This document shows positions 3,035 to 19,104 of a DNA stretch of 32,119 bases, in pieces. Numbering within the stretch: position 1 is the stretch's first letter; every line of letters begins with the position of its first letter. A program made the position numbers and the translations under genes. Below the pieces are notes generated by a model, which made no database searches, was not told the origin of the DNA, and was given only the letters and a program-made list of their open reading frames with translations. This DNA is from a virus: positions 1 to 32,119 of IMG/VR virus record IMGVR_UViG_3300022903_000003. The stretch is one strand, 5' to 3'.

Positions 3035-3039
3035 CTGTT

Positions 3040-4813: not shown

Positions 4814-4842
4814 ATCATGGCAGATGCCCCGGAGGGTGTCAA
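4814..4842 (-). promoter_or_regulatory. Minus-strand promoter (TTGACA, 17-base spacer, CATGAT)
   Basis: Read on the minus strand, TTGACA (4842-4837) is followed after 17 bases by CATGAT (4819-4814), a four-of-six match to the -10 consensus. It points at the phosphodiesterase gene starting at 4786. The -35 box lies in the loop of the hairpin at 4825-4855. Confidence 0.65.
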
Positions 4843-4855
4843 CACCTCCGGGGCA
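4825..4855 (-). terminator. Hairpin terminator containing the next promoter's -35 box
   Basis: An 11-bp perfect GC-rich stem (TGCCCCGGAGG with its complement) encloses a nine-base loop that carries TTGACA. It lies 13 bases past the stop of the 4868-4999 gene. There is no T run, as is often the case for actinobacterial terminators. Confidence 0.7.
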
Positions 4856-4867
4856 CCACGTTCTAGG

Positions 4868-4999
4868 TCACATGTAGCTGTTTTTGATGTTCGTCAGGTT
4901 GAAGTCGGGAACCGGCTGCCATCCCCATGAACTGAGCTTGAGCCAGCCAAGCTCAGGATGAAGATGGTACATCGCGCCGAAGTGCACGAAGATTTCCAT
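4868..4999 (-). CDS. Small hypothetical protein
   Basis: This encodes 43 residues beginning MEIFVHFGAMYHLHPELGWL and ending NLTNIKNSYM. The ATG lies two bases after the stop of the preceding membrane gene, and the end of that gene (GGTGGTGATC) supplies a weak ribosome binding site, so coupling is likely. It is rich in aromatic residues, with no recognised domain. It is the last gene before the hairpin at 4825-4855. Confidence 0.55.
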   Translation of the reverse strand: MEIFVHFGAMYHLHPELGWLKLSSWGWQPVPDFNLTNIKNSYM

Positions 5000-5001
5000 G
5001 A

Positions 5002-5127
5002 TCACCACCACATCGAGATGAAGTGAACCGCCACGAAGATCACGGCTGCCCAGAAAATCAGGTTCGCCACCAGAGCCACCAGCCAGATCTTGCCGAAGTG
5101 CCGAAAGATTGTGTCGAAAAAGTCCAT
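5002..5127 (-). CDS. Small membrane protein, one transmembrane segment
   Basis: This encodes 41 residues, with ATG preceded by GAGGGCA. A basic, amphipathic start (MDFFDTIFRHFGK) is followed by a long hydrophobic helix (IWLVALVANLIFWAAVIFVA) and a short aromatic tail. It would insert as a single-pass inner membrane protein. Role unknown; it could be an anti-host or superinfection factor. Confidence 0.65.
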   Translation of the reverse strand: MDFFDTIFRHFGKIWLVALVANLIFWAAVIFVAVHFISMWW

Positions 5128-5205
5128 TGCCCTCATACCCGCTTTCTACCGTTGAACCTTGCGTCTCTGATCTTTATACCACACTCTGAGCAGATGCACC
5201 AGGGG

Positions 5206-5343
5206 TCATGACGTCGTGACCTTGTTCGGGCTAGGACAACCAGGGTTGATGCACTCCATGAACGTGAATGTAGTGGTCTTCCCCTTCTTGTCCGTCTTGG
5301 TGACCGTGCGAACCACGATGTAGTTGTGGGTATGGCCACCCAT
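5206..5343 (-). CDS. Small putative zinc-binding protein, paralogue of its neighbour
   Basis: This encodes 45 residues. The ATG follows the upstream gene's TAA directly (TAAATG). It shares with that neighbour the length, an MG-start with His-rich beginning (MGGHTHNYIVV), a Thr-rich middle (TKTDKKGKTTTFTF), a Cys pair (CINPGC) and the C-terminal KVTTS. Only one Cys pair is in frame. A second Cys pair (WCICSECG) is encoded in another frame just downstream (about 5140-5200), suggesting a frameshifted zinc ribbon. Function unknown. Confidence 0.6.
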   Translation of the reverse strand: MGGHTHNYIVVRTVTKTDKKGKTTTFTFMECINPGCPSPNKVTTS

Positions 5344-5481
5344 TTAGCTAGTCACCTTCTGTGTAGCGCCACACTTGCAGGACTGGTACAAGACGAAGTA
5401 CACGCCATGGTCACCCACTTTGGTCTCTGTCTTGTACGTCACCCATACGTGATCATGCTTCCTGTGCTTACCTTTTCCCAT
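5344..5481 (-). CDS. Small Cys/His protein, paralogue of its neighbour
   Basis: This encodes 45 residues, with ATG after GGAGGAACGT. It is basic and His-rich at the start (MGKGKHRKHDHVWVTYKT), with one CKCG pair and the end ATQKVTS. The matched length and matching start and end with the 5206-5343 gene indicate a tandem duplication. A single Cys pair plus N-terminal histidines could bind one metal ion. Function unknown. Confidence 0.6.
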   Translation of the reverse strand: MGKGKHRKHDHVWVTYKTETKVGDHGVYFVLYQSCKCGATQKVTS

Positions 5482-5490
5482 ACGTTCCTC

Positions 5491-5694
5491 CTACAGAACG
5501 AGACGAAGACTATTGTCAGATACTACCCGAAACCCATGGGCACCAGCCTGCCGGATGGCTACCTGATGCGTCTCAGGCCAGTATTCATCAACCTGGTAGA
5601 GAGCCCCCTCATACACGACAAAATCGTACTCAGTGAAAAACATCGCGCACCATCTTCTTTCGCGGGGGAGGTGAAGGAGTGTGACCAGTGCCAC
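5491..5694 (-). CDS. Hypothetical protein
   Basis: This encodes up to 67 residues from a GTG at 5694 with AGGAGGA just upstream. An alternative is the ATG at 5643, giving 50 residues beginning MFFTEYDFVVYEGALYQVDE, which looks like the conserved part but has a poor ribosome binding site. The core resembles a small SH3-like beta barrel (VVYEGALYQVDEYWPETHQV). If the GTG is used, its ribosome binding site and start codon lie inside a 9-bp hairpin. Function unknown. Confidence 0.55.
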   Translation of the reverse strand: MALVTLLHLPRERRWCAMFFTEYDFVVYEGALYQVDEYWPETHQVAIRQAGAHGFRVVSDNSLRLVL

Positions 5695-5700
5695 ACTCCT
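5675..5700 (-). promoter_or_regulatory. Hairpin covering ribosome binding site and GTG start
   Basis: A 9-bp perfect inverted repeat (AGGAGTGTG and CACACTCCT, loop of eight) contains both the AGGAG site and the GTG at 5694-5692. Folding would block translation of the downstream gene. It could also simply be a terminator of the 5716-6057 gene if translation starts at 5643. Confidence 0.4.
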
Positions 5701-5715
5701 CCTACCATTCTACTC

Positions 5716-6057
5716 TTACTTGTCGTCGTCCTTCTTGACACTCTTCCACAGGCCAGGGTTCTTGCCGCTCCCTGGCTGGTTCTTCCTCTTGTGGCTCTGG
5801 CCTTCAGGGCGAGGCTTCCGAGACTGACCAGGGATACCGCCACCGTGTGATGACTCCTGGTTGCGCTGCTCGTGTTTCCTCAGTCGGTCCGTTGCCGTCT
5901 TCTCGTCGTTCGCCGTACCGATCTTCTTGCCCTTGGTGTCGTACAGGACGAACTTGCCGCTTTTCTTGTCCCGCTTGACCTTTCCCGCCTGCTTGGCGTT
6001 GAAGGTAACCTTCTTTTCCTCACCAGGCTTCAGCGGGTCTCTCTTGAACCATCCCAT
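5716..6057 (-). CDS. Highly basic hypothetical protein
   Basis: This encodes 113 residues, with ATG after a GGAGAG site that overlaps the preceding stop. Residues 1-65 look folded (KVTFNAKQAGKVKRDKKSGK, then FVLYDTKGKKIGTANDEKTA). Residues 66-113 are a disordered, Lys/Arg/Gly/Pro/Ser-rich tail ending in VKKDDDK. A nucleic-acid-binding role is plausible from charge alone, but no family is recognised. Confidence 0.75.
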   Translation of the reverse strand: MGWFKRDPLKPGEEKKVTFNAKQAGKVKRDKKSGKFVLYDTKGKKIGTANDEKTATDRLRKHEQRNQESSHGGGIPGQSRKPRPEGQSHKRKNQPGSGKNPGLWKSVKKDDDK

Positions 6058-6061
6058 ACAG

Positions 6062-6403
6062 TTACTCTCCGATCAGAAGGTGGATCAGGTCGTCCTTCTT
6101 CATGCTGCTGTATCCCTTGTGCCCGCGCTCCTTCGCCTCCGCGCGAAGCTCCTTCACCGTGTAGTCACTCCAATACGTCTCAGTCTTCGTGATGTCCACA
6201 GGCGGGAGGGTGGTCTCCGCGATCACGCGGCCGGTGAGAGCGTTCTCCAGCGCCTCCACATTCCGGGTAAGGCACGCGATGCCCTTACCAAGCTTCTGGT
6301 TCACGCGACGCTGCTGGCGCGCGGTGAGCTGCTCAGGGTTGGGGCGGTTGGCCGCGCGATTCTGGGCGACGTAGTTGGCAATGCGCTGCTCAGTGGTAAG
6401 CAT
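6062..6403 (-). CDS. Protein with C-terminal SAP/Rho-N-like domain
   Basis: This encodes 113 residues, with ATG after GAGGAGA. The N-terminal half is helical and basic (LTARQQRRVNQKLGKGIA). The C-terminal 35 residues (YTVKELRAEAKERGHKGY, then SSMKKDDLIHLL) match the helix-extended-helix pattern of SAP or Rho N-terminal domains, which bind DNA or RNA. It is probably a nucleic-acid-binding accessory protein. A hairpin at 6456-6473 precedes it. Confidence 0.72.
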   Translation of the reverse strand: MLTTEQRIANYVAQNRAANRPNPEQLTARQQRRVNQKLGKGIACLTRNVEALENALTGRVIAETTLPPVDITKTETYWSDYTVKELRAEAKERGHKGYSSMKKDDLIHLLIGE

Positions 6404-6455
6404 GTCGGGTCTCCTCTGACCTCAGTTTGCGAGACACTCTGTCCCTTAGGCAGTG

Positions 6456-6473
6456 AGGGGGACGAATCCCCCT
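6456..6473 (-). terminator. Short hairpin with TTCG tetraloop
   Basis: On the minus strand AGGGGGA-TTCG-TCCCCCT forms a 7-bp stem with a stable UUCG-type tetraloop in RNA. It lies 22 bases past the stop of the kinase-like gene at 6495. It has no T run and could be a terminator or an RNA-stabilising 3' end. No TTGACA box is present in this one. Confidence 0.55.
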
Positions 6474-6494
6474 GACCACCTGAGATACAGACTA

Positions 6495-7016
6495 TCAGTG
6501 TGCTTCTCCCGCGTCAACCACCAGCGGGTAACCATCTACGTTGAAGATGTTGGAGCCTGCCCAAGCGTCATCGATCAACTGCTTGATCTCTTGAAGCGCC
6601 TTCTCGCCCTCTTCAGTCCACGCGCACCGTGAAGGTTTGACGTAGGGCATCGCGATGACGAAGACGGAGCCGTAAGGGAACTGCGGGCAGTCGATCTCAT
6701 ACAGCGTGACCTTGCTGGCCCAACGCTTATCAGAGAACTGCTGAAGGTTCCGGTACTCCGCGTGCTGGCTGGCGAAGATGAAGTCATATGCCGTGTTTTC
6801 TCCCCAGTACTCCCCCTCATCTTCGCACTCTGCGAAGTCCGGTGTCTGTGTGGGAACCTTGTACACTACACCATCCTTGGCATACACCACGCGCCAAGTA
6901 CCCTCACCAACGTAGGTGAATCCATCAGGCGCTTGCTCAGCCCACGTGTCGTAGGCGTGTCCGTCTGCCCACCAGTGCGCAATGGCGGTAGCGTCTTCCA
7001 GGTTTCCAACGGCCAT
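6495..7016 (-). CDS. Minimal kinase-like protein (paralogue of 18417-18998)
   Basis: This encodes 173 residues, with ATG after AGGAGGGCAACGAA. The order of motifs follows a protein-kinase/APH fold N-lobe and catalytic core: a glycine-rich turn YVGEGTWRVVY (about 35-45), VVYKV with Lys53, a hinge-like VIAMPYV near 120-126, then LIDDAWAGSNIFNV (Asp149/150, Asn156), resembling the catalytic loop HxDxxxxN. The last residues VVDAGEAH place a DFG-like Asp168-Ala-Gly at the C-terminus. No activation segment or C-lobe follows, so it is far shorter than a normal kinase (about 250 residues or more). It may bind nucleotide or be a pseudokinase. It is the first gene after promoter boxes at 7059-7086. Confidence 0.6.
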   Translation of the reverse strand: MAVGNLEDATAIAHWWADGHAYDTWAEQAPDGFTYVGEGTWRVVYAKDGVVYKVPTQTPDFAECEDEGEYWGENTAYDFIFASQHAEYRNLQQFSDKRWASKVTLYEIDCPQFPYGSVFVIAMPYVKPSRCAWTEEGEKALQEIKQLIDDAWAGSNIFNVDGYPLVVDAGEAH

Positions 7017-7058
7017 TTCGTTGCCCTCCTGAGGCGCTTGCTTGACCTTGTGAGTAGA

Positions 7059-7086
7059 ACTCTACCCGACTCAGCCAGGGTGTCAA
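7059..7086 (-). promoter_or_regulatory. Minus-strand promoter (TTGACA, 16-base spacer, TAGAGT)
   Basis: TTGACA at 7086-7081 is followed after 16 bases by TAGAGT at 7064-7059 on the minus strand. It is directed at the kinase-like gene starting at 7016. The -35 overlaps the loop of the hairpin at 7076-7091. Confidence 0.65.
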
Positions 7087-7091
7087 CCCTG
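7076..7091 (-). terminator. Hairpin overlapping a -35 box
   Basis: CAGGGT and ACCCTG (6 bp) enclose the loop TGAC, five bases past the stop of the HNH gene. It is shorter than its counterparts at 4.8, 18.4 and 19.1 kb but has the same arrangement, with TTGACA spanning the loop and the top of the stem. Confidence 0.5.
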
Positions 7092-7095
7092 TTCC

Positions 7096-7485
7096 TCAAG
7101 ATCTTTTGATGAAGCCGCCTGCACTGCTCCTACCTGTGTGAACGTCGTGACAGTGCTTGCACAGGCCGCGCATAGCGCCGGGGTCGTTCGGGTCTCTCCC
7201 CATCTCGACAAGCTGTCTGCGCGTGAAAGGGTAGTGGTCAGCGATAAAGGATCGCATGGAACATTCCTGTAGTCCATGGCATCCTTTTTGTGTGCACACA
7301 CAGAATTTGTCACGTTCTAGCACCAATTCGCGTGCCTTTTGATGGTCCTTTCCATATCCTCTTTCGGCGGCTGTACCTCGTTTCTTATCACGATCTCTTT
7401 GCTGCATACGTTTATGTGTCGGGCAATAGCCGTTGAATTCTAGTCGTTTCCGGCAGCCGCTAAAGCGACATTCGTACAGTTTCAT
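7096..7485 (-). CDS. HNH endonuclease
   Basis: This encodes 129 residues from the ATG at 7485, which has AGGAG eight bases upstream (a longer form could start at 7506). The N-terminus carries a Cys/His knuckle (ECRFSGCRKRL, then YCPTH). The HNH core is FIADHYPFTRRQLVEMGRDP followed by AMRGLCKHCHDVHTGR, with the metal-binding His/Asp and the CxxCH knuckle typical of phage HNH nucleases. These cut DNA and act either in packaging or as homing nucleases. This copy is far from the terminase genes and is flanked by hairpins on both sides, and its coding sequence looks more AT-rich than its neighbours, so a mobile origin is likely. Confidence 0.85.
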   Translation of the reverse strand: MKLYECRFSGCRKRLEFNGYCPTHKRMQQRDRDKKRGTAAERGYGKDHQKARELVLERDKFCVCTQKGCHGLQECSMRSFIADHYPFTRRQLVEMGRDPNDPGAMRGLCKHCHDVHTGRSSAGGFIKRS

Positions 7486-7520
7486 GTATTGTGCTCCTGA
7501 TCTCATGATAGAATAGAGAA

Positions 7521-7558
7521 AAGCGCCACACGGGAATGCCCTCCCTCGTGTGGCGCTT
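7521..7558. terminator. Strong hairpin terminator upstream of the HNH gene
   Basis: A 12-bp perfect stem (AAGCGCCACACG with its complement) encloses 14 bases. On the minus strand it runs into CTTTTCTCTATTCT, a good intrinsic terminator tail. The plus-strand side is also T-rich. Confidence 0.8.
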
Positions 7559-7579
7559 GTTTCATCTCTTCACAGATAC

Positions 7580-7627
7580 GAATGCCCCTGGTGACGGTCC
7601 CCCACAGTCCGCACACCAGGGGCATTC
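7580..7627. terminator. Large hairpin after the 7634-8035 gene
   Basis: A 14-bp perfect stem (GAATGCCCCTGGTG and its complement) encloses a 20-base loop. It lies seven bases past the stop at 7634 and 21 bases from the second hairpin. The sequence GAATGCCC occurs in both hairpins. Confidence 0.75.
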
Positions 7628-7633
7628 TCCATT

Positions 7634-8035
7634 TTAGTCCATGATCCCTGAAGGATAGTCCAGGATTCGGCACGCTTTCAGGTAAGCGAGAAAGAGCCTT
7701 TCAAGCTCATACTCGATATCGACCTTGTCCCGCCAGAACTTCACGTAGACAACCTTGCTGAAGAAACGTGGTCCCGCTGGCCCGTTGTCGTCAACCTGAT
7801 CCCTGATGATTCCCACCAGGTCATTCAGGGTGTTGTCTATCTCCCGCGTTACCGCATCAATGTCCAAACGAATGGGCAACGAGGGATGCACCGAACTGGA
7901 CTTTCCGCCTCCTCCACCGCCTTTTCCGCCCACATTGCCTAGTTCCAGCGCCAATTCAAGGCGCACATCAGGTAGCTTATCCAGCACCTTGGAGTACGCA
8001 CTGTGACCCCATGACGGCTGCTCACCCAAAGGCAT
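7634..8035 (-). CDS. Hypothetical protein with glycine-rich linker
   Basis: This encodes 133 residues, with ATG after GGGAGGGCTATCC. A short N-terminal segment (about 1-35) is joined by a poly-Gly/Ser linker (GGKGGGGGGKSSS, about 36-48) to a helical C-terminal domain (about 55-133; IRLDIDAVTREIDNTLNDLV, later YVKFWRDKVDIEYELERLF). The linker makes it a two-part protein. Its start overlaps the WhiB gene by 14 bases. No family is recognised. Confidence 0.75.
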   Translation of the reverse strand: MPLGEQPSWGHSAYSKVLDKLPDVRLELALELGNVGGKGGGGGGKSSSVHPSLPIRLDIDAVTREIDNTLNDLVGIIRDQVDDNGPAGPRFFSKVVYVKFWRDKVDIEYELERLFLAYLKACRILDYPSGIMD

Positions 8036-8573
8036 GGATAGCCCTCCCTATGTTTCTCGCCTGGTCCGCATCAGGACCAAGACGCTCGTCTGCCTTCTGT
8101 CTTGCCTTCCTCACAAAGTTGGCGCTCATTTTCACGCGCTCACCAATGGTAGCACTATCCAGTCCTCCGGCTACCATGGCTTCAATCGCTGCGATCCTGT
8201 CGAGCGCCGTAGAACCTCTCGCCGCATCAGGAATGCCACGGGTCATGTCTCGCACCTTGCGCCAGTCTACGACGCTGTGAACGTCGCTCAGGGACGCGTG
8301 AGACTCTCCACTAGCTTGTCGGTCAACCTCTTCAAGGGTCATAGCTGTGACGTCGAATCCTTCGGACCAGACACGACCAGCCGCCACACCAGTAAAGCTG
8401 GACTCTTCGGGTTTCACCCATTCGTTGCAGAGATCCACCACGGAGCAGCCTAGACAATGGTCCAAGGCCACCAGCGCGATGTTACCGCGAGACTGATCAA
8501 AAATTCGCGGATCAATCTCGCGGCACTCCGCTTCATCGAACAGGCGTTCAGAAAACGCCACGTCAGATTGCAC
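8022..8573 (-). CDS. WhiB-family iron-sulfur regulator fused to a helix-turn-helix
   Basis: This encodes 183 residues from a GTG at 8573, which overlaps the preceding gene by 11 bases; a GTG at 8561 is also possible. Cys17, Cys40, Cys43 and Cys49 give the C-x22-C-x2-C-x5-C cluster ligand pattern of WhiB proteins. ECREIDPRIF matches the usual CR..DP..F start, and GVAAGRVWSEG replaces the G-V-W-G-G turn. After about residue 125 a second helical domain (AIEAMVAGGLDSATIGERV, then KMSANFVRKARQK) looks like a helix-turn-helix. WhiB proteins bind a 4Fe-4S cluster and the host sigma factor to redirect transcription. Most are 80-130 residues long, so the C-terminal DNA-binding-like extension is notable. 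Confidence 0.85.
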   Translation of the reverse strand: MQSDVAFSERLFDEAECREIDPRIFDQSRGNIALVALDHCLGCSVVDLCNEWVKPEESSFTGVAAGRVWSEGFDVTAMTLEEVDRQASGESHASLSDVHSVVDWRKVRDMTRGIPDAARGSTALDRIAAIEAMVAGGLDSATIGERVKMSANFVRKARQKADERLGPDADQARNIGRAIHAFG

Positions 8574-8718
8574 CCAACAGGAGCGCGGTCATGAAAAACA
8601 TGTGGACTCCAGCAATCATGAACACCGTGAAGCGGAGTCCCGGAGTCTTTGCGTTGGCTGCTCCCATGATTGTTACGCATGAGATAACAGCCAACCAGAC
8701 GATAAGTGCAATGTGCAT
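8563..8718 (-). CDS. Small membrane protein, two hydrophobic segments
   Basis: This encodes 51 residues, with ATG after GAGGAGGGCTTAC. Hydrophobic stretches at about 3-21 (IALIVWLAVISCVTIMGAA) and 31-51 (TVFMIAGVHMFFMTALLLGA) are separated by AKTPGLRF, predicting a hairpin in the membrane. It overlaps the WhiB start. Function unknown. Confidence 0.65.
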   Translation of the reverse strand: MHIALIVWLAVISCVTIMGAANAKTPGLRFTVFMIAGVHMFFMTALLLGAI

Positions 8719-8729
8719 GTAAGCCCTCC

Positions 8730-8873
8730 TCAGGCAATCGTGCCGGTCAGGACCAGGATGCCAAGGATGAACCCGGCAACACCGATCAGAAACGCGGAGC
8801 CAGACTCCATCCTGTGCCCCATCTGCATGTCAAGCAGACCGTTGACAACGAGGAAAATAGCTACTGCGGTCAT
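8730..8873 (-). CDS. Small membrane protein, two hydrophobic segments
   Basis: This encodes 47 residues, with ATG after AGGAGGGCACGTC. Segments VAIFLVVNGLL and AFLIGVAGFILGILVLTGTI flank a polar stretch MQMGHRMESG. It is directly upstream of another small membrane gene, and the two may form a pair. Function unknown. Confidence 0.65.
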   Translation of the reverse strand: MTAVAIFLVVNGLLDMQMGHRMESGSAFLIGVAGFILGILVLTGTIA

Positions 8874-8884
8874 GACGTGCCCTC

Positions 8885-10096
8885 CTAGCTGTGGATGGTA
8901 ATTCCCTGCCAGCCGACTCCCTCACCGGGGGTCAACCACATACTCACCATACCAGCCGGTGAGTCTTCTCCGCAACCCCTCACGAACCACTGACTTCCGC
9001 CATCTAGCGCGGGAAGCTGAAGCCACGTTCGGTTGCCTCCGGTCTGAGCCATCCGGTAGTGGTGGAGGTGAGCCGAAACCATGATATCGGCCTGGCCCAT
9101 TGGTTGACGACCATGACTCTGACCCTGCCACCACTTGAGTGCGGCATCAGCACCTGTCTTCCAGAGATGACCGTGCGTGAAGCCAAGCACCAGCGGCGAC
9201 TTTGGGGAACCCACATCAACGACAATGTTGCCCTCTCCTTCATCAGGAAACACGAACTGAACATTCCCATATTTACCCGACGCTTCCAGCACTTCGGCTG
9301 CTGCTGACGCACCTTCAATTGCCCACGAATCGGTAATGGGCATTTCCTGCATTCGGTACGTCTCGTCATGGTTACCAGGCACAACTGGAACAAGCACCTG
9401 CTCTGCCCATGGCGCCAGAAGGGCAACCTGATGAACAATCAACCGCCTGTACGCGCGTACCTGCTCAGTGATGGGAATGTCTAGACTCGCGACATTCTTT
9501 CCGCCTTGGCTGACGAGTCCTTCGATGCAGTCTCCGAGCCAAGGAAGGATGAGTCGGTCAACTCCGCCCTGATCAACGACCAACTCATAGATTCGTTGGG
9601 TGAGAGCGGCGAATCGTTCGACGGTTCCGACAGTTCCGCCACCTTCGGATTTACCAAGCTGGAGATCACCGACAGGCACCATGAGCATTCGTGAAGTTCG
9701 CTTAGCCGCGCGTGTCCGTGTACGGTGCCGACGAACATTGGAATATCCACGAAGGATAGCTTCCGCTTCGTCGCTATCGTACGCAATGATTCTACCTCTT
9801 CGGGCAAGGGTCGCTTTGTAGGCCACTCGCCACTCTCCACTAGCTGTCTGCCACGTGGATTTGTTGTAAGTAGAAACCGCCCAAATGTCAGGATCCACGC
9901 CAAGCGACTCAAGAATTTCGATATCGTCTGGTGGAGGTGCGTCCATTGGACTGTTGATTGTCTTCGGAACTGTTCTGATTTCACCGGTATCTTCTCCTAG
10001 GTCAACGCCTGCCGACCAAATAGGAATCTTCGCGTCCTTTCTAGGGCGGTCGGGTAGCCTATTTGAATTCGGATACGGCGAAGCAATGTCAGCCAT
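8885..10096 (-). CDS. Metallophosphoesterase (calcineurin-like)
   Basis: This encodes 403 residues, with the ATG at 10096 chosen because GAGGAGGCTTA precedes it; a start at 10126 would lack a site. The metallophosphoesterase ligand series is visible in order: PVGDLQLG (about 140-147), LGDCIEG, VVPGNHDE, FTHGHLW and VSAHLHHYRM. These supply the Asp, His and Asn ligands of a two-metal centre. The N-terminal 100 residues resemble the helical domain seen in actinophage versions (DIEILESLGVDPDIWAV). Substrates of phage members are generally unknown; DNA ends, cyclic nucleotides or phosphoproteins are possible. It overlaps the MazZ-like gene by 8 bases. Confidence 0.88.
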   Translation of the reverse strand: MADIASPYPNSNRLPDRPRKDAKIPIWSAGVDLGEDTGEIRTVPKTINSPMDAPPPDDIEILESLGVDPDIWAVSTYNKSTWQTASGEWRVAYKATLARRGRIIAYDSDEAEAILRGYSNVRRHRTRTRAAKRTSRMLMVPVGDLQLGKSEGGGTVGTVERFAALTQRIYELVVDQGGVDRLILPWLGDCIEGLVSQGGKNVASLDIPITEQVRAYRRLIVHQVALLAPWAEQVLVPVVPGNHDETYRMQEMPITDSWAIEGASAAAEVLEASGKYGNVQFVFPDEGEGNIVVDVGSPKSPLVLGFTHGHLWKTGADAALKWWQGQSHGRQPMGQADIMVSAHLHHYRMAQTGGNRTWLQLPALDGGSQWFVRGCGEDSPAGMVSMWLTPGEGVGWQGITIHS

Positions 10097-10430
10097 TAAG
10101 CCTCCTCTTGTAGCGCGTAGCTTCATACGCCATGACGTTGAACATCAAAGCGGCTGCATGGTCCTCGTCACGTTCACCAGTGAACCACTGCATGAAGTGT
10201 CGGATAGCAGCCTCTTGAAACCGCGCCTCTTCCTCTTCGCTATTGGCATTCTCCCAATTACGATCAGAGTATTTCTCCGCGCCTTTCGCCATAAGCTCAG
10301 CGAAACGCGTAAGCATCTGCTCCTTATATGGTACACCAGCCGGAATCAGAAGATCAAAACGGGGCTTCCCCTGTGAGGGTTCGCGGACGTTGCCGGACGT
10401 ATATTGGTGGCGGTTTCCCGTATCCTTCAT
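10089..10430 (-). CDS. MazZ-like dATP/dGTP pyrophosphohydrolase (DUF5664 family)
   Basis: This encodes 113 residues from the ATG at 10430. The frame stays open to an ATG at 10583, but that start would bury 230 bases of the upstream gene. The family start is visible as SGNVREPSQGKPRFDLL, followed by FAELMAKGAEKYSDRNWENA and the helical metal site EAAIRHFMQWFTGERDEDHA with Glu and Asp ligands, then MFNVMAYE. Members hydrolyse dNTPs to dNMPs, and the cyanophage S-2L relative works in diaminopurine metabolism. Here it may adjust dNTP pools for replication. No PurZ is visible in this window. Confidence 0.75.
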   Translation of the reverse strand: MKDTGNRHQYTSGNVREPSQGKPRFDLLIPAGVPYKEQMLTRFAELMAKGAEKYSDRNWENANSEEEEARFQEAAIRHFMQWFTGERDEDHAAALMFNVMAYEATRYKRRLNG

Positions 10431-10785: not shown

Positions 10786-10930
10786 TGTACGCCCTGTAGT
10801 CCACGAATGCCTGGTCAGCATCCATCCGGGTGGTCTCTGTGGGGGACATGTAGTCACGGGTTAGTGCTGCCTGCCACAAGTCATACAGGTAGTTCAACCA
10901 TTCTTGCGCGCTGATGTCTCCTGAATACAT
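10763..10930 (-). CDS. Small hypothetical protein
   Basis: This encodes 55 residues and starts at an ATG that shares one base with the stop of the preceding gene (TAATG), a typical coupling signal. It is acidic and helical (EWLNYLYDLWQAALTRDYM, then RMDADQAFVDYRAYSDHV). No cysteines, membrane segment or recognised family. Confidence 0.6.
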   Translation of the reverse strand: MYSGDISAQEWLNYLYDLWQAALTRDYMSPTETTRMDADQAFVDYRAYSDHVQGL

Positions 10931-13433: not shown

Positions 13434-13441
13434 TTGCCCTC

Positions 13442-13498
13442 CTACAGAACGTAAAGCAGAATAACGATAACGACCAGGACCAGAATGAGAATACCCAT
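13442..13498 (-). CDS. 18-residue hydrophobic microprotein
   Basis: The sequence MGILILVLVVIVILLYVL is encoded from an ATG six bases after AGGAGG and ends in TAG, which itself is part of the AGGAGG site of the SSB-like gene. All residues except Met, Gly and Tyr are aliphatic, predicting one membrane helix with almost no soluble part. The good ribosome binding site and fit between genes support translation. It could also serve as a leader that opens the next ribosome binding site. Confidence 0.5.
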   Translation of the reverse strand: MGILILVLVVIVILLYVL

Positions 13499-13509
13499 TT
13501 CATGCCTCC

Positions 13510-13674
13510 TTAGTAGCCCATGAGCATGAAGTAAACTACCTCTTCAAGCTCTTCGTGGGATAGCTGCTCAAGCACAGCATCCACACCCTCGAAGTCATCC
13601 TTCCACGCTGCGGTACGCAACGCCTGCATGTTATCGTACGCCTCATCCGTCCACTGGCGCAAGCTCTGTGACAC
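13510..13674 (-). CDS. Small acidic hypothetical protein
   Basis: This encodes 54 residues, with GTG preceded by GGGAGGTTTACA. It is helical and acidic (RQWTDEAYDNMQALRTAA, then LEQLSHEELEEVVYFML). It overlaps the primase-like gene end by 32 bases. No family is recognised. Confidence 0.65.
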   Translation of the reverse strand: MSQSLRQWTDEAYDNMQALRTAAWKDDFEGVDAVLEQLSHEELEEVVYFMLMGY

Positions 13675-14530
13675 TGTAAACCTCCCGGCATCTGTAACAC
13701 GGTCGCCCTTTGTAGGGCTTGTCGTTCATTCGCCCTTCACGGTAGCTGGTCAGGTAGCCGTTGCAGCCGCCACACCTTACCGGTACTTCGTAGGGATCCA
13801 GCACGGTCCCGAGAGGAACCACCTTGGCCGCTACTGTCGTACGTTGATACTCTACCATGGTCGGGAGGATATTTGCCCAGTTCGCGACCGGTATTTCTGC
13901 TGGTCCGTAAATCGGGTCTCCGTCCCTGAGCTTCGCAAGCTGGAACACCTTGGCTAGTCCGTCCGTGATGGAAGGAGCAGGCACCAGGTCATGCCCTGTG
14001 CTGGCACGGAACATCTCCTCAACGGTGTCACCAAGTTCGATCATCTCGGTAACGTCCTTGCCCCTGGTGGGGAGAAGGATTCGAACCTCACCAACCAGCG
14101 GATCAAGATCCTTCTTCACCGCGAGTAGGTTCTTCATGCCCGCAGCGTCGTTGTCAGCTACCAGGAACACGCGGTCTAGCCCTCTGAAGCGAACCGCATA
14201 GTCCGGACTCCACGAGAGTGCCCCGTTAGGGTAGCTGAGAGCCACGTAGCCGAGAGAAACCAGCGTCTCGGCGTCCTTCTCTCCCTCTACCAACCACACG
14301 CCTTTCAGGAAGCTCTGAGAGCTGTACAGAAGGTGGAGGTTGTACAGGGTAGGGCTGACTGGCCCCATGCCATTCACGTACGTCTCAGCGTTTCCTATGC
14401 GACGCTGCGCTGTGTACGTCTTGCTGCCACACTCACACCGCTTCTTTACCTTGCGGTAGATAGGCTTACCCGACTCATCGTGGTAGACGTACACAGCTTC
14501 GCGCCGGTAAGAGTGCTGGTGATCAGCCAA
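13643..14530 (-). CDS. Toprim-domain primase-like protein
   Basis: This encodes 295 residues from a TTG at 14530, overlapping the upstream membrane gene by 8 bases. A basic N-terminus with CEC (32-34) leads into a Toprim domain: VWLVEGEKDAETL (Glu82), SYPNGALSW and FLVADNDAAG (Asp126, Asp128). This order matches DnaG and phage primase-helicase N-terminal parts. A CxxC (253/256) and CxxC (278/281) zinc ribbon closes the protein. With the RepA-like ATPase at 21.7-22.9 kb it may make up a split primase-helicase. It lacks an obvious full DnaG RNA polymerase N-domain, so primase activity is inferred. Confidence 0.82.
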   Translation of the reverse strand: MADHQHSYRREAVYVYHDESGKPIYRKVKKRCECGSKTYTAQRRIGNAETYVNGMGPVSPTLYNLHLLYSSQSFLKGVWLVEGEKDAETLVSLGYVALSYPNGALSWSPDYAVRFRGLDRVFLVADNDAAGMKNLLAVKKDLDPLVGEVRILLPTRGKDVTEMIELGDTVEEMFRASTGHDLVPAPSITDGLAKVFQLAKLRDGDPIYGPAEIPVANWANILPTMVEYQRTTVAAKVVPLGTVLDPYEVPVRCGGCNGYLTSYREGRMNDKPYKGRPCYRCREVYSVTELAPVDG

Positions 14531-14630
14531 GGCGGGAAAGCTCCATCAGAAGCCAGCAGATCAGAATGACCGCTGAAGCAGCAACGATACTGGCAGCAAC
14601 GCCCTTTGCCCACGTCCTGAAAAACTCCAT
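14523..14630 (-). CDS. Small membrane protein, one transmembrane segment
   Basis: This encodes 35 residues beginning MEFFRTWAKG, then an uninterrupted hydrophobic helix (VAASIVAASAVILICWLLM) and ELSRLG. The stop region CTTGGCTGA contains the TTG start of the primase-like gene. The ribosome binding site is modest (GAGGA, ten bases). Function unknown. Confidence 0.55.
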   Translation of the reverse strand: MEFFRTWAKGVAASIVAASAVILICWLLMELSRLG

Positions 14631-14636
14631 TGCTTA

Positions 14637-14843
14637 TCAGTCCTCACCATTCGCGTATTTACGGGCGGCTTTCATGTCCTTTGTTTCGCGATGCACATAC
14701 TTGGAGGCACCACGATTCTTGTTGTAGGCTCCCCGCTTGGCCTTGGTCACGCGGCCGGTACGGAGATCCTGGAGAATGATCTTATCTCCTTCGTTCCACG
14801 CGTTGTAGAACTTACCCGTCTTCGTATTCCTAACTATCTTCAA
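14637..14843 (-). CDS. Small basic hypothetical protein
   Basis: This encodes 68 residues from a TTG at 14843 with AGGAG five bases upstream. A longer frame to 14891 would start inside a terminator hairpin and is less likely. The sequence KFYNAWNEGDKIILQDLRTG looks like an SH3-type beta barrel, followed by a Lys/Arg-rich tail (TKAKRGAYNKNRGASKY). Nucleic-acid binding is plausible from charge. No family is recognised. Confidence 0.65.
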   Translation of the reverse strand: MKIVRNTKTGKFYNAWNEGDKIILQDLRTGRVTKAKRGAYNKNRGASKYVHRETKDMKAARKYANGED

Positions 14844-14863
14844 CTTGTCTCCTAACGAGAAAC

Positions 14864-14898
14864 GGGGAAGGTGGCTGCCCCTGCTAACCACCTTCCCC
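14864..14898 (-). terminator. Hairpin terminator after the 14913-15302 gene
   Basis: An 11-bp perfect stem (GGGGAAGGTGG with its complement) encloses a 13-base loop. It lies 14 bases past the stop at 14913, and on the minus strand it is followed by GTTTCTCGTT. No TTGACA box is in the loop. Confidence 0.75.
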
Positions 14899-14912
14899 GA
14901 TGTTACCTCAGG

Positions 14913-15302
14913 TCACTTCGCCTTGGCAACAGCCACCTTGAAGAGCTTGTACGGACGTCCCTTGTACGGTCCCTTGGTCAGCTCACGCTCGCCGAAGTAC
15001 TTGACTGCAACCGTGTCACCGATGTTCGCCTGAGAGTTGTCCATCTCACGACGGAGCACCGACGAGAAACCGATCACACGAACCGCGTCACCATCGGCCA
15101 GCCGGACAGTCCAGACAGGAACCTCGTCACCCGGCTTGAACTCATCCGGCTGAGTCTCCTTGGCGGTAAGGGTACCCTGGATACCCTCTCCCTCATCCTC
15201 CGGCACCCACGCAGGGGCACCAGCGTCGGTCATCGTACCGAGAAGGTCAACAACCTCAGTGCCTGCCGTGTCATCGCTCAGGCTGTCGAGAAGATCACCC
15301 AT
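14913..15302 (-). CDS. Hypothetical acidic protein, possible OB-fold
   Basis: This encodes 129 residues, with ATG after AGGAGGCTACTAC. An acidic N-terminal 45 residues (LLDSLSDDTAGTEVVDLL, then VPEDEGEG) precedes a beta-rich domain: GTLTAKETQPDEFKPGDEVP, VWTVRLADGDAVRVIGF, IGDTVAVKYFGE and YKLFKVAVAK. The strand pattern resembles OB-fold proteins of actinophage replication regions, so a DNA-binding role is possible. This is a pattern judgement, not a family match. Confidence 0.7.
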   Translation of the reverse strand: MGDLLDSLSDDTAGTEVVDLLGTMTDAGAPAWVPEDEGEGIQGTLTAKETQPDEFKPGDEVPVWTVRLADGDAVRVIGFSSVLRREMDNSQANIGDTVAVKYFGERELTKGPYKGRPYKLFKVAVAKAK

Positions 15303-15358
15303 GTAGTAGCCTCCTAGGCTGTAGTGGGATGGTGTGTTATCGAGTGTAGCACAGGATC

Positions 15359-15625
15359 TCAGTAGCGGGGAAGAACCGTTTCGGGAGCACCACCACGATC
15401 CTTACCCTCGTTCAGGATGTCGTCCAGCACACTCCAGATAGGGAACGTCTGAACAATCGCCTCCTGCTCTGCCGAGGTCAGGTCACCGGCATCCTGAATC
15501 TTACGAAGGTCCGTAATACTCTGAGCACCGAGAACCTTCATGAGCGTAAACGCTTCCCGCCCGGTAAGCTCAAGCGTCACATCCGGGTACACCGGAGGAA
15601 TCTTGTTCACCTTTGCTGTTGCCAT
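15359..15625 (-). CDS. Hypothetical protein with YPDV motif
   Basis: This encodes 88 residues, with the ATG at 15625 preceded by AGGAGGGCATGAA. PPVYPDVTLELTGREAFTLM, followed by LGAQSITDLRKIQDAG, shares its opening pattern (YPDV.L.L.G....F) with the 17920-18123 gene. The two appear to be diverged paralogues of a widespread small protein family of unknown function. Confidence 0.7.
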   Translation of the reverse strand: MATAKVNKIPPVYPDVTLELTGREAFTLMKVLGAQSITDLRKIQDAGDLTSAEQEAIVQTFPIWSVLDDILNEGKDRGGAPETVLPRY

Positions 15626-15626
15626 T

Positions 15627-15836
15627 TCATGCCCTCCTAGCCGCTTCAACAGAAGCCTGGTGCCGTTGTACCGCGTCCATCATAGAGGCAACGTACGCCT
15701 CACGCACTCCGTCTGGAAGCTGGTACATGATCTCTTCGTGCAGCTCTTGAAACTGTATGACGTCCCATTCATCATCAGCGATAGCAGTAGCGATATCACC
15801 AGCCGTAATAAGATGAGTGATGTGAAGGTGTGCCAT
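15627..15836 (-). CDS. Small hypothetical protein
   Basis: This encodes 69 residues, with the start in a TGATG overlap with the upstream gene. It is helical and acidic, with His at the start (MAHLHITHLI) and the segment VIQFQELHEEIMYQL. No family is recognised. It is part of the run of small genes between the OB-like gene and the RecB/Cas4-type nuclease. Confidence 0.65.
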   Translation of the reverse strand: MAHLHITHLITAGDIATAIADDEWDVIQFQELHEEIMYQLPDGVREAYVASMMDAVQRHQASVEAARRA

Positions 15837-16036
15837 CAGATAACTCCCATAAACTTCAGCTTCGGTGTGATGTCCTCAGCATCCCAGTCATCAGCGACAA
15901 TGTTGTACTGCTGAAAGTACGGCTTGTCTTTCATAGCCGCCATACCTGCAAACAAAATATCAGTCAGGTCCGAATCGTCCAAGTTGTACGTACCGTCCCC
16001 GGACGCACGGACCAGAAACACACGCTGAAAAGCCAT
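15836..16036 (-). CDS. Small hypothetical protein
   Basis: This encodes 66 residues from the ATG at 16036 (AGAGG six bases upstream). VFLVRASGDGTYNLDDSDLT and ADDWDAEDITPKLKFMGVI suggest a small mixed alpha/beta fold. The end overlaps the next gene by one base. No family is recognised. Confidence 0.65.
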   Translation of the reverse strand: MAFQRVFLVRASGDGTYNLDDSDLTDILFAGMAAMKDKPYFQQYNIVADDWDAEDITPKLKFMGVI

Positions 16037-16038
16037 TT

Positions 16039-16857
16039 TCACCCTCTCTTGAAAACCTGTGACGTTTTGAGCTTGTTGAACTCGTAAACATTCTTCAAGC
16101 TCTTGAAGATCCTGAAGGCTGCTTCAAGGTCAACATCAGTGTCCCACACTTCGTATTTGTTTGGCAAGATGCGAACGATAGTTGCTCGTTCCTGGCTGAC
16201 CTCAGGCATTTCACCCGACTTGACCAGCGCTCCTTCCTTGTACAGGGTGCCTTCCCCACGAGTGTACGCGGCAAGCTGCAACGCCCATTCAGGCCACGGG
16301 CCGGTACCGCTGGTCTTCCAGTCACCAATCACAGGCACACCGAAGGTAGACCATGATGTGTACACGAAGTCCGCCGTTCCCGCGTAGCCAACCGTCTCGT
16401 TGTAGAACGTGATCTCAGTTGAAATGAATTCCGGGTTATGGTCAGAAAGGAACATCTGATACCCGTTGTACAAAGGTCGCTGTTCTGGAGTCAACAGATA
16501 TGCGACGTCCTTACCCCCAATATCCATTTCCGCGATATCGTGAAGCTTGGTACCACGAATACCGGCCGCTTCAACCACTTCAGTATGTGTCTGCTTGAAG
16601 TAGTCAATGCTCTCCGCCTTGGTCCACTTCTTCCCGGTGGCCGGGTTAAGAACCTTGCCAGTACGCATCTCGTACAACAGCTCATACTCGTCAACCGCAC
16701 GCGTAGCCGCCTTCTTGGCCGCCCATGGAACCAGGTTAGGCTTCGCCTTGGCTCCTAGGATCGTCGTGACGGACGGAAGACGACGACCGGACACCGGACT
16801 AAGGTAGACGCGTCTACCGGTCTTAGCGTCCGTCGTAGCGCCTGTGGGCTCAGCCAA
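16039..16857 (-). CDS. RecB/Cas4-type exonuclease (PD-(D/E)XK)
   Basis: This encodes 272 residues from a TTG at 16857 with AGGAG seven bases upstream; the frame is open to 16935. The nuclease signature appears in order: RGTKLHDIAE (His in motif I), EITFYNETVGYAGTADFVY (GTAD in motif II), VIGDWKTS (Asp and Lys of motif III) and WALQLAAYTRGEG (Gln/Tyr motif IV). Such proteins degrade double-stranded DNA ends and serve phage recombination or host DNA breakdown. The four-cysteine iron-sulfur site of true Cas4 is absent, and no recombinase partner is recognised nearby. It overlaps the upstream small gene by 8 bases at CTTGGCTGA. Confidence 0.85.
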   Translation of the reverse strand: MAEPTGATTDAKTGRRVYLSPVSGRRLPSVTTILGAKAKPNLVPWAAKKAATRAVDEYELLYEMRTGKVLNPATGKKWTKAESIDYFKQTHTEVVEAAGIRGTKLHDIAEMDIGGKDVAYLLTPEQRPLYNGYQMFLSDHNPEFISTEITFYNETVGYAGTADFVYTSWSTFGVPVIGDWKTSGTGPWPEWALQLAAYTRGEGTLYKEGALVKSGEMPEVSQERATIVRILPNKYEVWDTDVDLEAAFRIFKSLKNVYEFNKLKTSQVFKRG

Positions 16858-17008
16858 GACTGATCTCCTCCCTGTGTCCATCCGGCAGGGTACGGAGTAC
16901 AGAGATGATCTCTTCCGTGTCGTACCCCTCGTCAACCATCTCGGCTGCTTCCTTGATAACGTCCGCTAGAACGGGATCGCAAGCAGGCTCAATATTGTCG
17001 TTGTCCAT
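16850..17008 (-). CDS. Small acidic hypothetical protein
   Basis: This encodes 52 residues, with ATG after AGGAGACTAA. It is mostly acidic and helical (VLADVIKEAAEMVDEGYDTE, then LPDGHREEISLG). Its end holds the TTG start of the nuclease gene, so the two are probably coupled. No family is recognised. Confidence 0.65.
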   Translation of the reverse strand: MDNDNIEPACDPVLADVIKEAAEMVDEGYDTEEIISVLRTLPDGHREEISLG

Positions 17009-17539
17009 TTAGTCTCCTAGTCTTGTAGGCCAGTCGGGTACAGCGAGCGCTTCTATCTGCTCTTTCCGCAATGGTAGCAGAGGCGTGTAATAGTACGCGT
17101 GGCCCATTTGGACCAAGCCATGTGCGTCAGCCTGGTCGCTATCGAGTTTGCCTAGTTCTGGAAAGTATGATGACACGGTTTTGATCATGTCCTGTTTGGT
17201 AGCTTTCCCGTTCCCGGTCACGAACTTCTTGAGATTTGTGCTGGTGACTACAGCATATGGTATGCCCAATTCCCACAGGAGATGAGTTATCAGTGTGAAT
17301 AGGCCAGCCAATTGAGTCTTTGCATTTCCTACCGCGCCATAGGCCGGACGCTCGATTACCGCGACGCGCACAGGGCCGGTATCAACGAGGTTGAATATCT
17401 CGCGCTCAATCTTGGCTAGACGCTCGTGGCCACTGATGAGACTAGCGGGAGTCTTAAGGCTGTACGCCCAATCAACTCCCGCTAGCCCTGTGGACGTCAG
17501 GCTCTGGTCAATGCCTAGAACCGCGTCCACAATGGTCAC
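17009..17539 (-). CDS. RuvC-like Holliday junction resolvase
   Basis: This encodes 176 residues from a GTG in a GTGA overlap with the upstream gene. RNase H-fold motifs are visible: LGIDQSLTSTGLAG (first Asp), VAVIERPAYG (Glu), TGNGKATKQDMI and the C-terminal DSDQADAHGLVQMGHAYYY (two Asp). It would cut branched DNA before packaging. It lies next to the RecB/Cas4-type nuclease. Confidence 0.88.
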   Translation of the reverse strand: MTIVDAVLGIDQSLTSTGLAGVDWAYSLKTPASLISGHERLAKIEREIFNLVDTGPVRVAVIERPAYGAVGNAKTQLAGLFTLITHLLWELGIPYAVVTSTNLKKFVTGNGKATKQDMIKTVSSYFPELGKLDSDQADAHGLVQMGHAYYYTPLLPLRKEQIEALAVPDWPTRLGD

Positions 17540-17829
17540 TCGCTCTCAGCCCTGCCTTCAGCGAGACCCTCCGCGTAGCCCTCCGAGTAACCATCATCAC
17601 GACGGTCCTCCGCGTACTGCTCACCATCGGCGTAACCGTCGTCGTAGCCGTAGTCGCGACCGTCCTGCTCACCATCGTTGTACTGCGACTGGCCGTAGTC
17701 ATCCACCAGCTCAATGAGCGCGGTAACCTCTTCATGGCTCAGAGTCACCGTGTCTCCGTCACCAGCGGTAGCGGCCAACAGGCCACGCTCAGCGGTACGC
17801 CAGTCGTTGCTCAAAAAGTCCAGAGCCAT
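17536..17829 (-). CDS. Acidic protein with tandem Tyr/Gly/Asp repeats
   Basis: This encodes 97 residues, with ATG after AGGAGGGCATACT. Residues 1-45 look like a normal helical domain (SHEEVTALIELVDDYGQ). Residues about 46-97 consist of a degenerate repeat of about 5-8 residues built on DGYxDG/EGYAEG (DYGYDDGYADGEQYAEDRR, then DDGYSEGYAEGLAEGRAESE). The tail is strongly acidic and low in complexity and might mimic DNA or bind a metal or a basic protein; this is inference. Confidence 0.72.
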   Translation of the reverse strand: MALDFLSNDWRTAERGLLAATAGDGDTVTLSHEEVTALIELVDDYGQSQYNDGEQDGRDYGYDDGYADGEQYAEDRRDDGYSEGYAEGLAEGRAESE

Positions 17830-17919
17830 AGTATGCCCTCCTAGGCACTAGTGGTTGACCCGTGTGGCCAACTTCCCCACCAGCGTACCACATGATGTAG
17901 GACGCTGATGAGAAGGCAG

Positions 17920-18123
17920 TCACGCGACGTTGACCCACTTCATCGTCGTAGACAGAACGTTGTCGTAGTCACCCGACGTCGCCTCTTCAGTGTACCGTTC
18001 GATCTGCTTGGCTGAAACTCCCCCACGACGGAGAGCGGCCATGGTGCGACCGATGATCATAAAGGCGTTGCCGTCTTCTCCGGAGAGCTGGACTTCCACG
18101 TCAGGGTACTTCGGCTGATCCAT
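17920..18123 (-). CDS. Hypothetical protein of a widespread KYPDV family
   Basis: This encodes 67 residues, with the ATG at 18123 preceded by GAGGAGCAGAAAC. KYPDVEVQLSGEDGNAFMII, then IERYTEEATSGDYDNVLSTT and MKWVNVA match a small family seen in many bacteria and phages, with no known function. It is related to 15359-15625. A noncoding gap of about 90 bases separates it from the 17536-17829 gene downstream. Confidence 0.78.
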   Translation of the reverse strand: MDQPKYPDVEVQLSGEDGNAFMIIGRTMAALRRGGVSAKQIERYTEEATSGDYDNVLSTTMKWVNVA

Positions 18124-18134
18124 GTTTCTGCTCC

Positions 18135-18332
18135 TCAGGCCATGTCGATTTTGCGGAGAGCGGTACGGGCGTATTCGATCTGGTCTCCCAGCATGAGCGC
18201 GACAACCACAGTGCTTTCGTGCTTGTCCGCGTAGATGACGCGCCCGAGCACTCCTGCGTGCTGTCCGTCCATGACCTCCACCCAATCACCAGAGTTGATG
18301 CGGGTGTGGTCGACCGGATTGCGAAGCTCCAT
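18135..18332 (-). CDS. Small KOW-like protein
   Basis: This encodes 65 residues. INSGDWVEVMDGQHAGVLGR, then VIYADKHESTVVVALML fits a KOW-type beta barrel (G..V.V..G...G..G.V) as in NusG or ribosomal L24. KOW domains bind RNA, ribosomes or RNA polymerase. As the first gene behind the promoter boxes at 18369-18397, it could affect phage transcription elongation. Ribosome binding site AGGAAAG. Confidence 0.68.
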   Translation of the reverse strand: MELRNPVDHTRINSGDWVEVMDGQHAGVLGRVIYADKHESTVVVALMLGDQIEYARTALRKIDMA

Positions 18333-18368
18333 TATCTTTCCTGTTCTCTCAGTTGATGCTGTGTTCTT

Positions 18369-18397
18369 ACCTTAGCTGGGAGGGGGCTGCCTGTCAA
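18369..18397 (-). promoter_or_regulatory. Minus-strand promoter (TTGACA, 17-base spacer, TAAGGT)
   Basis: TTGACA at 18397-18392 and TAAGGT at 18374-18369 are 17 bases apart on the minus strand, aimed at the KOW-like gene (start 18332). The -35 box lies in the loop of the 18378-18406 hairpin, touching the stem. Confidence 0.7.
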
Positions 18398-18406
18398 CCC
18401 CCTCCC
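18378..18406 (-). terminator. Hairpin terminator containing the next promoter's -35 box
   Basis: GGGAGGGGG and CCCCCTCCC (9 bp) enclose an 11-base loop with TTGACA. It lies about ten bases past the stop of the 18417-18998 gene. Confidence 0.72.
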
Positions 18407-18416
18407 GTAGAAGGGA

Positions 18417-18998
18417 TCAGGCGTACTCAAGCGGCTTGACGGAGTGCCTGCCCCTTGCGTGCTTCTTGCAGCACACGCCACAGAACCGGCCAGAAGACCT
18501 GAGGCCATCGTAACCAACCACGTCACGGCCAATCGGGCGACCGTTCACGACCACGTAGTTACCGCTGTGCAGATCAGGGACGATGTTGTGCATCCAATCC
18601 AGGAGTTCGGCTCCGTGCTCGTTCAGCTTGGTCCCGTCGTTCTCCAGGAACGGCATGGCGATGATGGGGAGACCATCGCACTCGTAGTAGGTGGTGGTAG
18701 GGATCCAGACCTCACGCGCCATACGGGCGAAGATCTCAGCTTCCTTCTTGTTCAGTGTGTCGTTGTCTTTGTTGTTGGCCACCTTGTACACGACTCCAGA
18801 CGGAGCGCGGAAGGCGACTCGGAAGACTCCGCCACCAAGGTACGTCCAGCCAGCGGGGATGAACGTCATGAACGAACGCCTGTCGAAGTATTCGTACCCG
18901 GCATCCTCGTACTTGAAGATGGCCTTTGCGAGTTGCGCAGCTTCCCGCGTGCTACCGATTCGGCTGCTGTGGCGGGAGGTCTTCGCGGTAACCAGCAT
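18417..18998 (-). CDS. Minimal kinase-like protein with Cys-rich tail (paralogue of 6495-7016)
   Basis: This encodes 193 residues. A kinase-like motif order is present: WTYLGGGVFRVAFRAPSG (glycine loop, 51-68), VVYKV (Lys72), KKEAEIFARM (Glu of a C-helix), LPIIAMPFLEN (hinge, about 110-120), VPDLHSGNYVV (Asp142, Asn147, a good match to the catalytic loop) and GRDVVGYDG (Asp159 at the DFG position). Only a short tail with CGVCCKKH follows, perhaps a metal site, so the C-lobe is missing. It shares the YxGxGxxRVx..GVVYKV and I-A-M-P segments with 6495-7016. It may phosphorylate a small molecule or protein, or only bind nucleotide. Confidence 0.65.
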   Translation of the reverse strand: MLVTAKTSRHSSRIGSTREAAQLAKAIFKYEDAGYEYFDRRSFMTFIPAGWTYLGGGVFRVAFRAPSGVVYKVANNKDNDTLNKKEAEIFARMAREVWIPTTTYYECDGLPIIAMPFLENDGTKLNEHGAELLDWMHNIVPDLHSGNYVVVNGRPIGRDVVGYDGLRSSGRFCGVCCKKHARGRHSVKPLEYA

Positions 18999-19046
18999 TG
19001 GTCTTACCTTTCCGGTTTGGAGGTCGTGCTTCTTGCTGATGACCTA

Positions 19047-19075
19047 ATACAACCATGCCCCGCAGAGCGTGTCAA
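19047..19075 (-). promoter_or_regulatory. Minus-strand promoter (TTGACA, 17-base spacer, TTGTAT)
   Basis: TTGACA at 19075-19070 is followed by TTGTAT at 19052-19047 on the minus strand, with TATTAG three bases further on as an alternative -10. It is directed at the kinase-like gene starting at 18998. Confidence 0.6.
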
Positions 19076-19088
19076 CTCCACGGGGCAT
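19055..19088 (-). terminator. Hairpin terminator containing the next promoter's -35 box
   Basis: On the minus strand ATGCCCCGTGGAG pairs with CTCTGCGGGGCAT over 13 positions, two of them G-U wobbles; in the plus-strand RNA the same positions would be mismatches. This indicates selection on the minus-strand transcript. The eight-base loop contains TTGACA. It lies 16 bases after the stop at 19105. Confidence 0.78.
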
Positions 19089-19104
19089 GTTTCTTCAAGA
19101 TCTT

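Follow-up and report, generated by a model that had tools for sequence, protein, structure and literature searches.

Can the end of one transcription unit and the promoter of the next share the same few dozen bases? The question is raised by the virus record IMGVR_UViG_3300022903_000003, whose 32,119 bases, taken as a whole, are the window analysed here. On its minus strand, between about 23.2 and 3.2 kb, lie the early and replication genes (polymerase, helicase, primase-like, exonucleases, RuvC-like resolvase), and the packaging and structure genes occupy the plus strand. In four gaps between co-directional genes of this early region, a minus-strand TTGACA stands at the apex of an inverted repeat, with a -10-like box 16-17 nt past it. 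The minus-strand gaps hold no other copies of TTGACA.

TTGACA at hairpin apexes between early genes

We number the elements 1 to 4 by position (TTGACA at 4842, 7086, 18397 and 19075). Their parts are as follows.

4823-4857, minus strand: hairpin of element 1, 13 bp, GGTGCCCCGGAGG-TGTTGACAC-CCTCCGGGGCATC, without a U-tract
4837-4842, minus strand: -35-like TTGACA of element 1, at the apex
4814-4819, minus strand: -10-like CATGAT of element 1, 17-nt spacer, preceded by TG
7076-7091, minus strand: hairpin of element 2, weak, 5-6 bp, CAGGGT-TGAC-ACCCTG
7081-7086, minus strand: -35-like TTGACA of element 2, at the apex
7059-7064, minus strand: -10-like TAGAGT of element 2, 16-nt spacer
18378-18406, minus strand: hairpin of element 3, 12 bp, GGGAGGGGGTTG-ACAGG-CAGCCCCCTCCC, without a U-tract
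18392-18397, minus strand: -35-like TTGACA of element 3, spanning stem tip and loop
18369-18374, minus strand: -10-like TAAGGT of element 3, 17-nt spacer
19051-19092, minus strand: hairpin of element 4, 15-17 bp, CATGCCCCGTGGAG...CTCTGCGGGGCATG, with a weak T-rich tail
19070-19075, minus strand: -35-like TTGACA of element 4, at the apex
19047-19052, minus strand: -10-like TTGTAT of element 4, weak, 17-nt spacer

The arrangement of TTGACA at hairpin apexes is real and non-random. Over the whole window the hexamer shows no excess (13 observed, 19 expected); what stands out is where the copies fall. On the minus strand of the early region, four of seven copies are in the 7.6% that is intergenic (P ~1e-3). 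All four gap copies are at a hairpin apex, a placement that scores as high at only 7.9% of gap positions, which under random placement gives P ~4e-5. Restricting the count to the three strong hairpins gives ~2e-4, and treating elements 2 and 4, a duplicated pair described below, as one gives ~5e-4. Among the 18 hexamers with at least four gap copies, TTGACA and GTTGAC, which overlap, are the two found at the apex every time, and the remaining ones have at most one copy there each. The best -10 at 16-18 nt, the spacing of sigma-70/SigA-type promoters, reaches at least four of six matches at three of the four sites, where the background is 5.8%.

These numbers bear on the simplest alternative, that compact gaps must hold both hairpins and promoters and that the two overlap by accident. 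The gaps are indeed short (79-106 bp, approximate lengths, as gene boundaries come from a simple codon-usage caller) and rich in hairpins, with the apex share given above, and elements 2 and 4 are not independent. Yet the placement stays improbable even with that pair taken as one, and an excess of the same geometry recurs in unrelated phages. We give coincidence hardly any weight.

RNA folding gives -30.7 kcal/mol (z -4.8, with flanks) for element 1, -28.7 kcal/mol (z -4.1) for element 3 and -28.6 kcal/mol (z -6.0) for element 4, and these three hairpins rank among the strongest of the minus strand; element 2 folds no better than shuffled sequence (z -0.44). The first-pass annotation of this DNA had placed TTGACA wholly inside the loop at three sites and across loop and stem top at 7081-7086. 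All four hexamers are at those positions and at the apex, but one to three of their bases pair at the stem tip: T1 pairs with A6 in the folds of elements 1 and 2, TTG pairs with CAG in element 3, and T1 pairs with G in element 4. The four -10-like boxes that it named, 16-17 nt after TTGACA, are all present.

That annotation also held that the elements are not copies of one repeat. The stems do differ, but the four are not independent, because elements 2 and 4 derive from what is best read, from sequence comparison, as one duplicated promoter-plus-gene cassette. Directly upstream of both is a common 16-mer, AAAAGATCTTGARRAA (0.04 expected), and the genes that follow them are paralogues (29% identity, E 2e-10, both phrog_28435). 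After the duplication the stems would have diverged (15-17 against 5-6 bp), with TTGACA and the spacing retained. The shared 16-mers and the genes that follow the four elements are listed here.

7092-7107, minus strand: shared 16-mer upstream of element 2, AAAAGATCTTGAGGAA
19091-19106, minus strand: shared 16-mer upstream of element 4, AAAAGATCTTGAAGAA
3968-4786, minus strand: gene after element 1, GDPD-family protein with a lipoprotein-like N-terminus
6495-7016, minus strand: gene after element 2, phrog_28435 protein
18135-18332, minus strand: gene after element 3, 65-aa KOW-motif protein (Pfam E 8e-7)
18417-18998, minus strand: gene after element 4 and before element 3, phrog_28435 protein

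The KOW-motif protein could act on transcription elongation. Distant relatives of phrog_28435 in Streptomyces phages are occasionally annotated as serine/threonine kinase.

Recurrence and covariation in other phages

We scanned viral contigs for the pattern GGGG-NN-TTGACA-NN-CCCC followed by a -10, with a broken stem as the control. At least 120 stretches carry the pattern, versus 45 for the broken stem. Context was counted after removal of related contexts, leaving 76 test sites and 30 controls. Among the matches listed, a T-tract past the stem is found in 44/76 versus 1/30 controls, a 17-nt spacer in 59/76 versus 13/30, and at least five of six TATAAT matches in 62/76 versus 10/30. At a typical site, GGGGTCTTGACAGACCCCTTTTTTTATTGTATAAT, the loop of a full terminator contains the -35 and the spacer contains the U-tract. 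Two such elements are matched by named phages, among them the T4-like cyanophages S-B68, S-PM2, S-CAM3 and S-H38 and staphylococcal Twort-like phages. The hairpin-apex share of promoter-like TTGACN is 11/73 in JDYN and 6/30 in S-CAM3, against about 4% for non-promoter TTGACN (P ~0.002 each); both phages were picked for matching such an element, which keeps their rates from standing for phages in general. Packed stop/start signals of a similar sort occur widely across phages.

In bacterial genomes the pattern is frequent and T-tracts are rare (13/99 among the matches listed). Several of the bacterial matches are Streptomyces sites resembling rRNA promoters. Four Streptomyces-type genome contigs have GGGGTGTTGACA(C)(A/G)CCCC around the -35 and then GTA(A/G)AGTTCTTCGGGTT, a form that is rRNA-promoter-like, so short inverted repeats around the -35 exist outside phages too.

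The first-pass annotation had proposed checking whether stem changes are compensatory around a fixed TTGACA. Compensatory changes are found at a homologous boundary in seven Twort-like phages, a boundary other than the window's own. The loop reads TTGACA or TTGACT, with TTGAC invariant, and the stems differ (AAACTCCCT/AGGGAGTTT, ACCCTATCTA/TAGATAGGGT, AAACTACCTA/TAGGTAGTTT). In the stem alignment 90% of 70 cells pair, and four pairs have changed on both sides. The covariation score is 0.476 versus 0.204 in shuffles (0/500 reach 0.476) and at most 0.167 in slid controls, where seven related sequences are few and their kinship inflates the shuffle comparison, and the slid controls agree in direction. 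The most distant rows (PG84, PSU4, RSM-J51) are taken as orthologous by BLAST match only. The loop-register geometry, with the -35 in the hairpin loop, is under selection in at least one other phage group.

Covariation also bears on a reading in which the inverted repeats are DNA operators: a regulator would bind the -35-centred palindrome and block or help polymerase, and the RNA hairpin would be incidental. The repeats overlap the -35 exactly, the nearly palindromic GTTGAC is present in all four, and the 16-mer upstream of elements 2 and 4 is a possible binding site. The window stems share nothing past GTTGACA, however, unlike the sites of one regulator, and the Twort-like stems change by compensatory pairs, which fits RNA pairing. 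We regard the operator reading as quite improbable. Cluster A mycobacteriophages use as repressor site the stoperator, a 13-bp asymmetric sequence, GGTGGMTGTCAAG. We rejected this identity: the window has no match at 0-1 mismatch, which counts against operators of this known type, and elements 1 and 3 resemble it only at 3 mismatches.

The junction reading and the points against it

We think it fairly probable that about 45 bp at each site serve two functions as a compact junction: a hairpin there ends or slows transcription of the upstream unit, and a host-type (sigma-70/SigA-like) promoter drives the gene that follows. A promoter constrains only its -35 and -10 hexamers, leaving the 16-18 nt spacer free; a hairpin terminator needs its arms to be complementary and sets the bases that come directly past it, nothing more. 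Placing the -35 in the loop and the 3' arm in the spacer satisfies the two at the least length, and the loop register suits a 17-nt spacer, which the 3' arm and the U-tract fill. The window junctions probably stop or slow read-through from upstream and initiate transcription of the gene that follows each of them (GDPD-family lipoprotein-like, phrog_28435 twice, KOW-motif). That stop and start are packed into about 45 bp, with the 3' arm as spacer, was proposed in the first-pass annotation, and is supported by the window statistics, the U-tract and TATAAT sites of other phages and the Twort-like covariation. The first-pass annotation also raised a conceivable effect of the folded transcript on promoter opening.

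Several points weigh against this reading. The -10 boxes match only 3-4 of 6 positions. The hairpin of element 2 is weak. Elements 1 to 3 lack a U-tract, and that of element 4, its T-rich tail, is poor. The excess in viral contigs appears only with G-rich 5' arms; the inverted CCCC...GGGG gives 43 stretches and a T-tract in 6/28. The need of mycobacterial RNA polymerase for a U-tract is disputed: PMC5335608 reports one U-less hairpin that terminates in vivo in mycobacteria, and the in vitro work that it cites finds the U-tract required. Finally, orthologues of the four boundaries were not found in named phages or viral contigs. A DNA search of named phages gave no relative covering the early-region boundaries, and neither did scans of viral contigs that used as query the polymerase, the helicase or the gene after element 4. 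A terminase search in viral contigs gave a 95% relative with the early region outside its coverage, and the relatives from an exonuclease search (best 47%) are without TTGACA-hairpin elements.

The two halves of the junction therefore carry different confidence. Promoter activity is likely, judging from the hexamers and their spacing. Termination is less certain, because the window hairpins lack U-tracts and the evidence on U-less mycobacterial hairpins conflicts. Elements 1, 3 and 4 have the GC-rich stem of a canonical intrinsic terminator and element 2 has it weakly, but no element has a proper U-tract directly past the stem. A terminator scan is passed only by element 4, by way of GTTGTATT, which overlaps its own -10. 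That all four hairpins are terminators is not supported, given the missing U-tracts and one very weak hairpin, and they count as putative terminators. They may only pause polymerase, terminate it in part, or need Rho or NusG. In sum, the first-pass observation holds in the main, and is in that sense partly confirmed; its interpretation is supported in part.

In another account the promoters are ordinary and the hairpin is only the 3' end of the upstream mRNA, serving nuclease protection or processing and not termination. Stable U-less hairpins do stand at gene 3' ends, some of them without TTGACA (in the gaps 5673-5702 and 6444-6485). Alone, this account leaves the -35 at the apex in all four elements unexplained, and the best-matching elements of other phages carry U-tracts. 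We consider it unlikely. Strong minus-strand hairpins with T-rich tails and without TTGACA lie at 14863-14899 and 7521-7558, so the phage also has more ordinary terminator-like hairpins.

If the junction reading is right, it yields a simple design rule for packing: the spacer houses the 3' arm (and the U-tract, where there is one), and the hairpin loop houses the -35. The rule is seen in unrelated phages and backed by compensatory stem changes, and therefore can help to annotate phage transcription units and to find promoters inside terminators. The U-less version in the window offers a test case for the disputed termination by U-less hairpins in actinobacteria.

The rest of the window gives the setting. 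By their matches, the polymerase, terminase and portal belong with siphovirus families of actinophage type and not with T4-like phages; the polymerase has 32-35% identity to those of Microbacterium, Streptomyces and Mycobacterium phages, the terminase 47% identity to Mycobacterium phage terminases, and there is a weak WhiB match. Because the best matches are mostly actinophage-type, the host is probably an actinobacterium. A divergent control region at 23180-23410 (minus strand) carries GGAACA...GTAACA motifs in repeated copies, together with an inverted repeat, TGTTCCCCC/GGGGGAACA, and looks like the operators or iterons of a main early promoter or origin. A 113-aa protein at 6062-6403 (minus strand) has a Rho_N/SAP-like C-terminal stretch. 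Where plus- and minus-strand genes meet, at 2995-3036, a perfect 18-bp hairpin (both strands) is probably a two-way terminator.

Comparison with known systems

The PeSL (promoter-early stem-loop) elements of T4-like phages, reportedly described by Arbiol et al. in 2010 and Comeau et al. in 2014, are said to be composites, found between small early genes, of a stem-loop terminator with a sigma-70-like promoter, and to be tied to cassette shuffling. The window elements likewise place a sigma-70-like promoter and a stem-loop in one short stretch, promoter-like by consensus only and with a putative terminator role; one duplicated cassette may bear on shuffling by recombination between copies. In RB49, hairpins that we take to be PeSL elements sit inside the promoter spacer, between -35 and -10 (TTGACAGGGGATCGGTGATCCCCTATAAT; 13 cases), and the -35 shows no excess at the apex; the window hairpins, in contrast, are centred on the -35. 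The phages that carry PeSL elements are T4-like, and the window differs in phage type and GC. PeSL elements of T4-like phages are cited in PMC4503421.

The Kayvirus/Twort-like boundaries are alike in having the -35 in a hairpin loop at a gene boundary and the -10 shortly after. They differ from the window in their U-tracts, near-consensus TATAAT, low GC and use of other registers too. In the phage 812 record MH844528, terminator and promoter are annotated as overlapping at our test boundary, and there are five such overlaps in 50 kb, in several registers: the loop, the 3' arm or the stretch right after the T-run can hold the -35. At 15060-15109, 18090-18137 and 24083-24133 of phage 812 are annotated terminators in which the 3' arm itself is the -35 (CTTGACTC), or the T-run is directly followed by TTGACA. 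From this variety of registers it would seem that phages squeeze terminator and promoter together at any place where the sequence demands of the two are compatible.

Among actinophages, phiC31 has early-gene hairpins, several of them adjoining a repeated motif (e.g. ...GGGTTGCCGACTTCCTTAC) that is possibly the next promoter. Its U-less early-region terminators (Ingham et al. 1995) are cited in PMC5335608 and PMC8355165. The likeness to the window is in the U-less hairpins between early genes and the motif beside several of them; unlike in the window, the motif is not TTGACA, and it comes after the hairpin or blends into its 3' arm. In phiC31, TG1 and GardenState we found no TTGACA in strong hairpins, and in phiC31 no TTGACN either.

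RNA polymerase recycling after intrinsic termination has been described in vitro for E. coli polymerase at a canonical terminator (PMC6978380). For a polymerase that remains on the DNA and diffuses to a nearby promoter, one located right where termination occurs would be convenient, and by this analogy a coupling of the junctions by recycling is possible. In the strongest version, a U-less high-GC hairpin would hold or release polymerase over the next promoter and the same polymerase would restart, with the loop -35 a coupling device and not mere packing; this we judge very improbable. The geometry makes recycling testable at natural sites.

Literature covered in part gave no paper describing the loop register as such. 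The present evidence does not make a new mechanism: composite terminator-promoters are of an already known kind, and what the window adds to that kind is the loop register, the high-GC U-less stems and the actinophage-type genome in which they are found.

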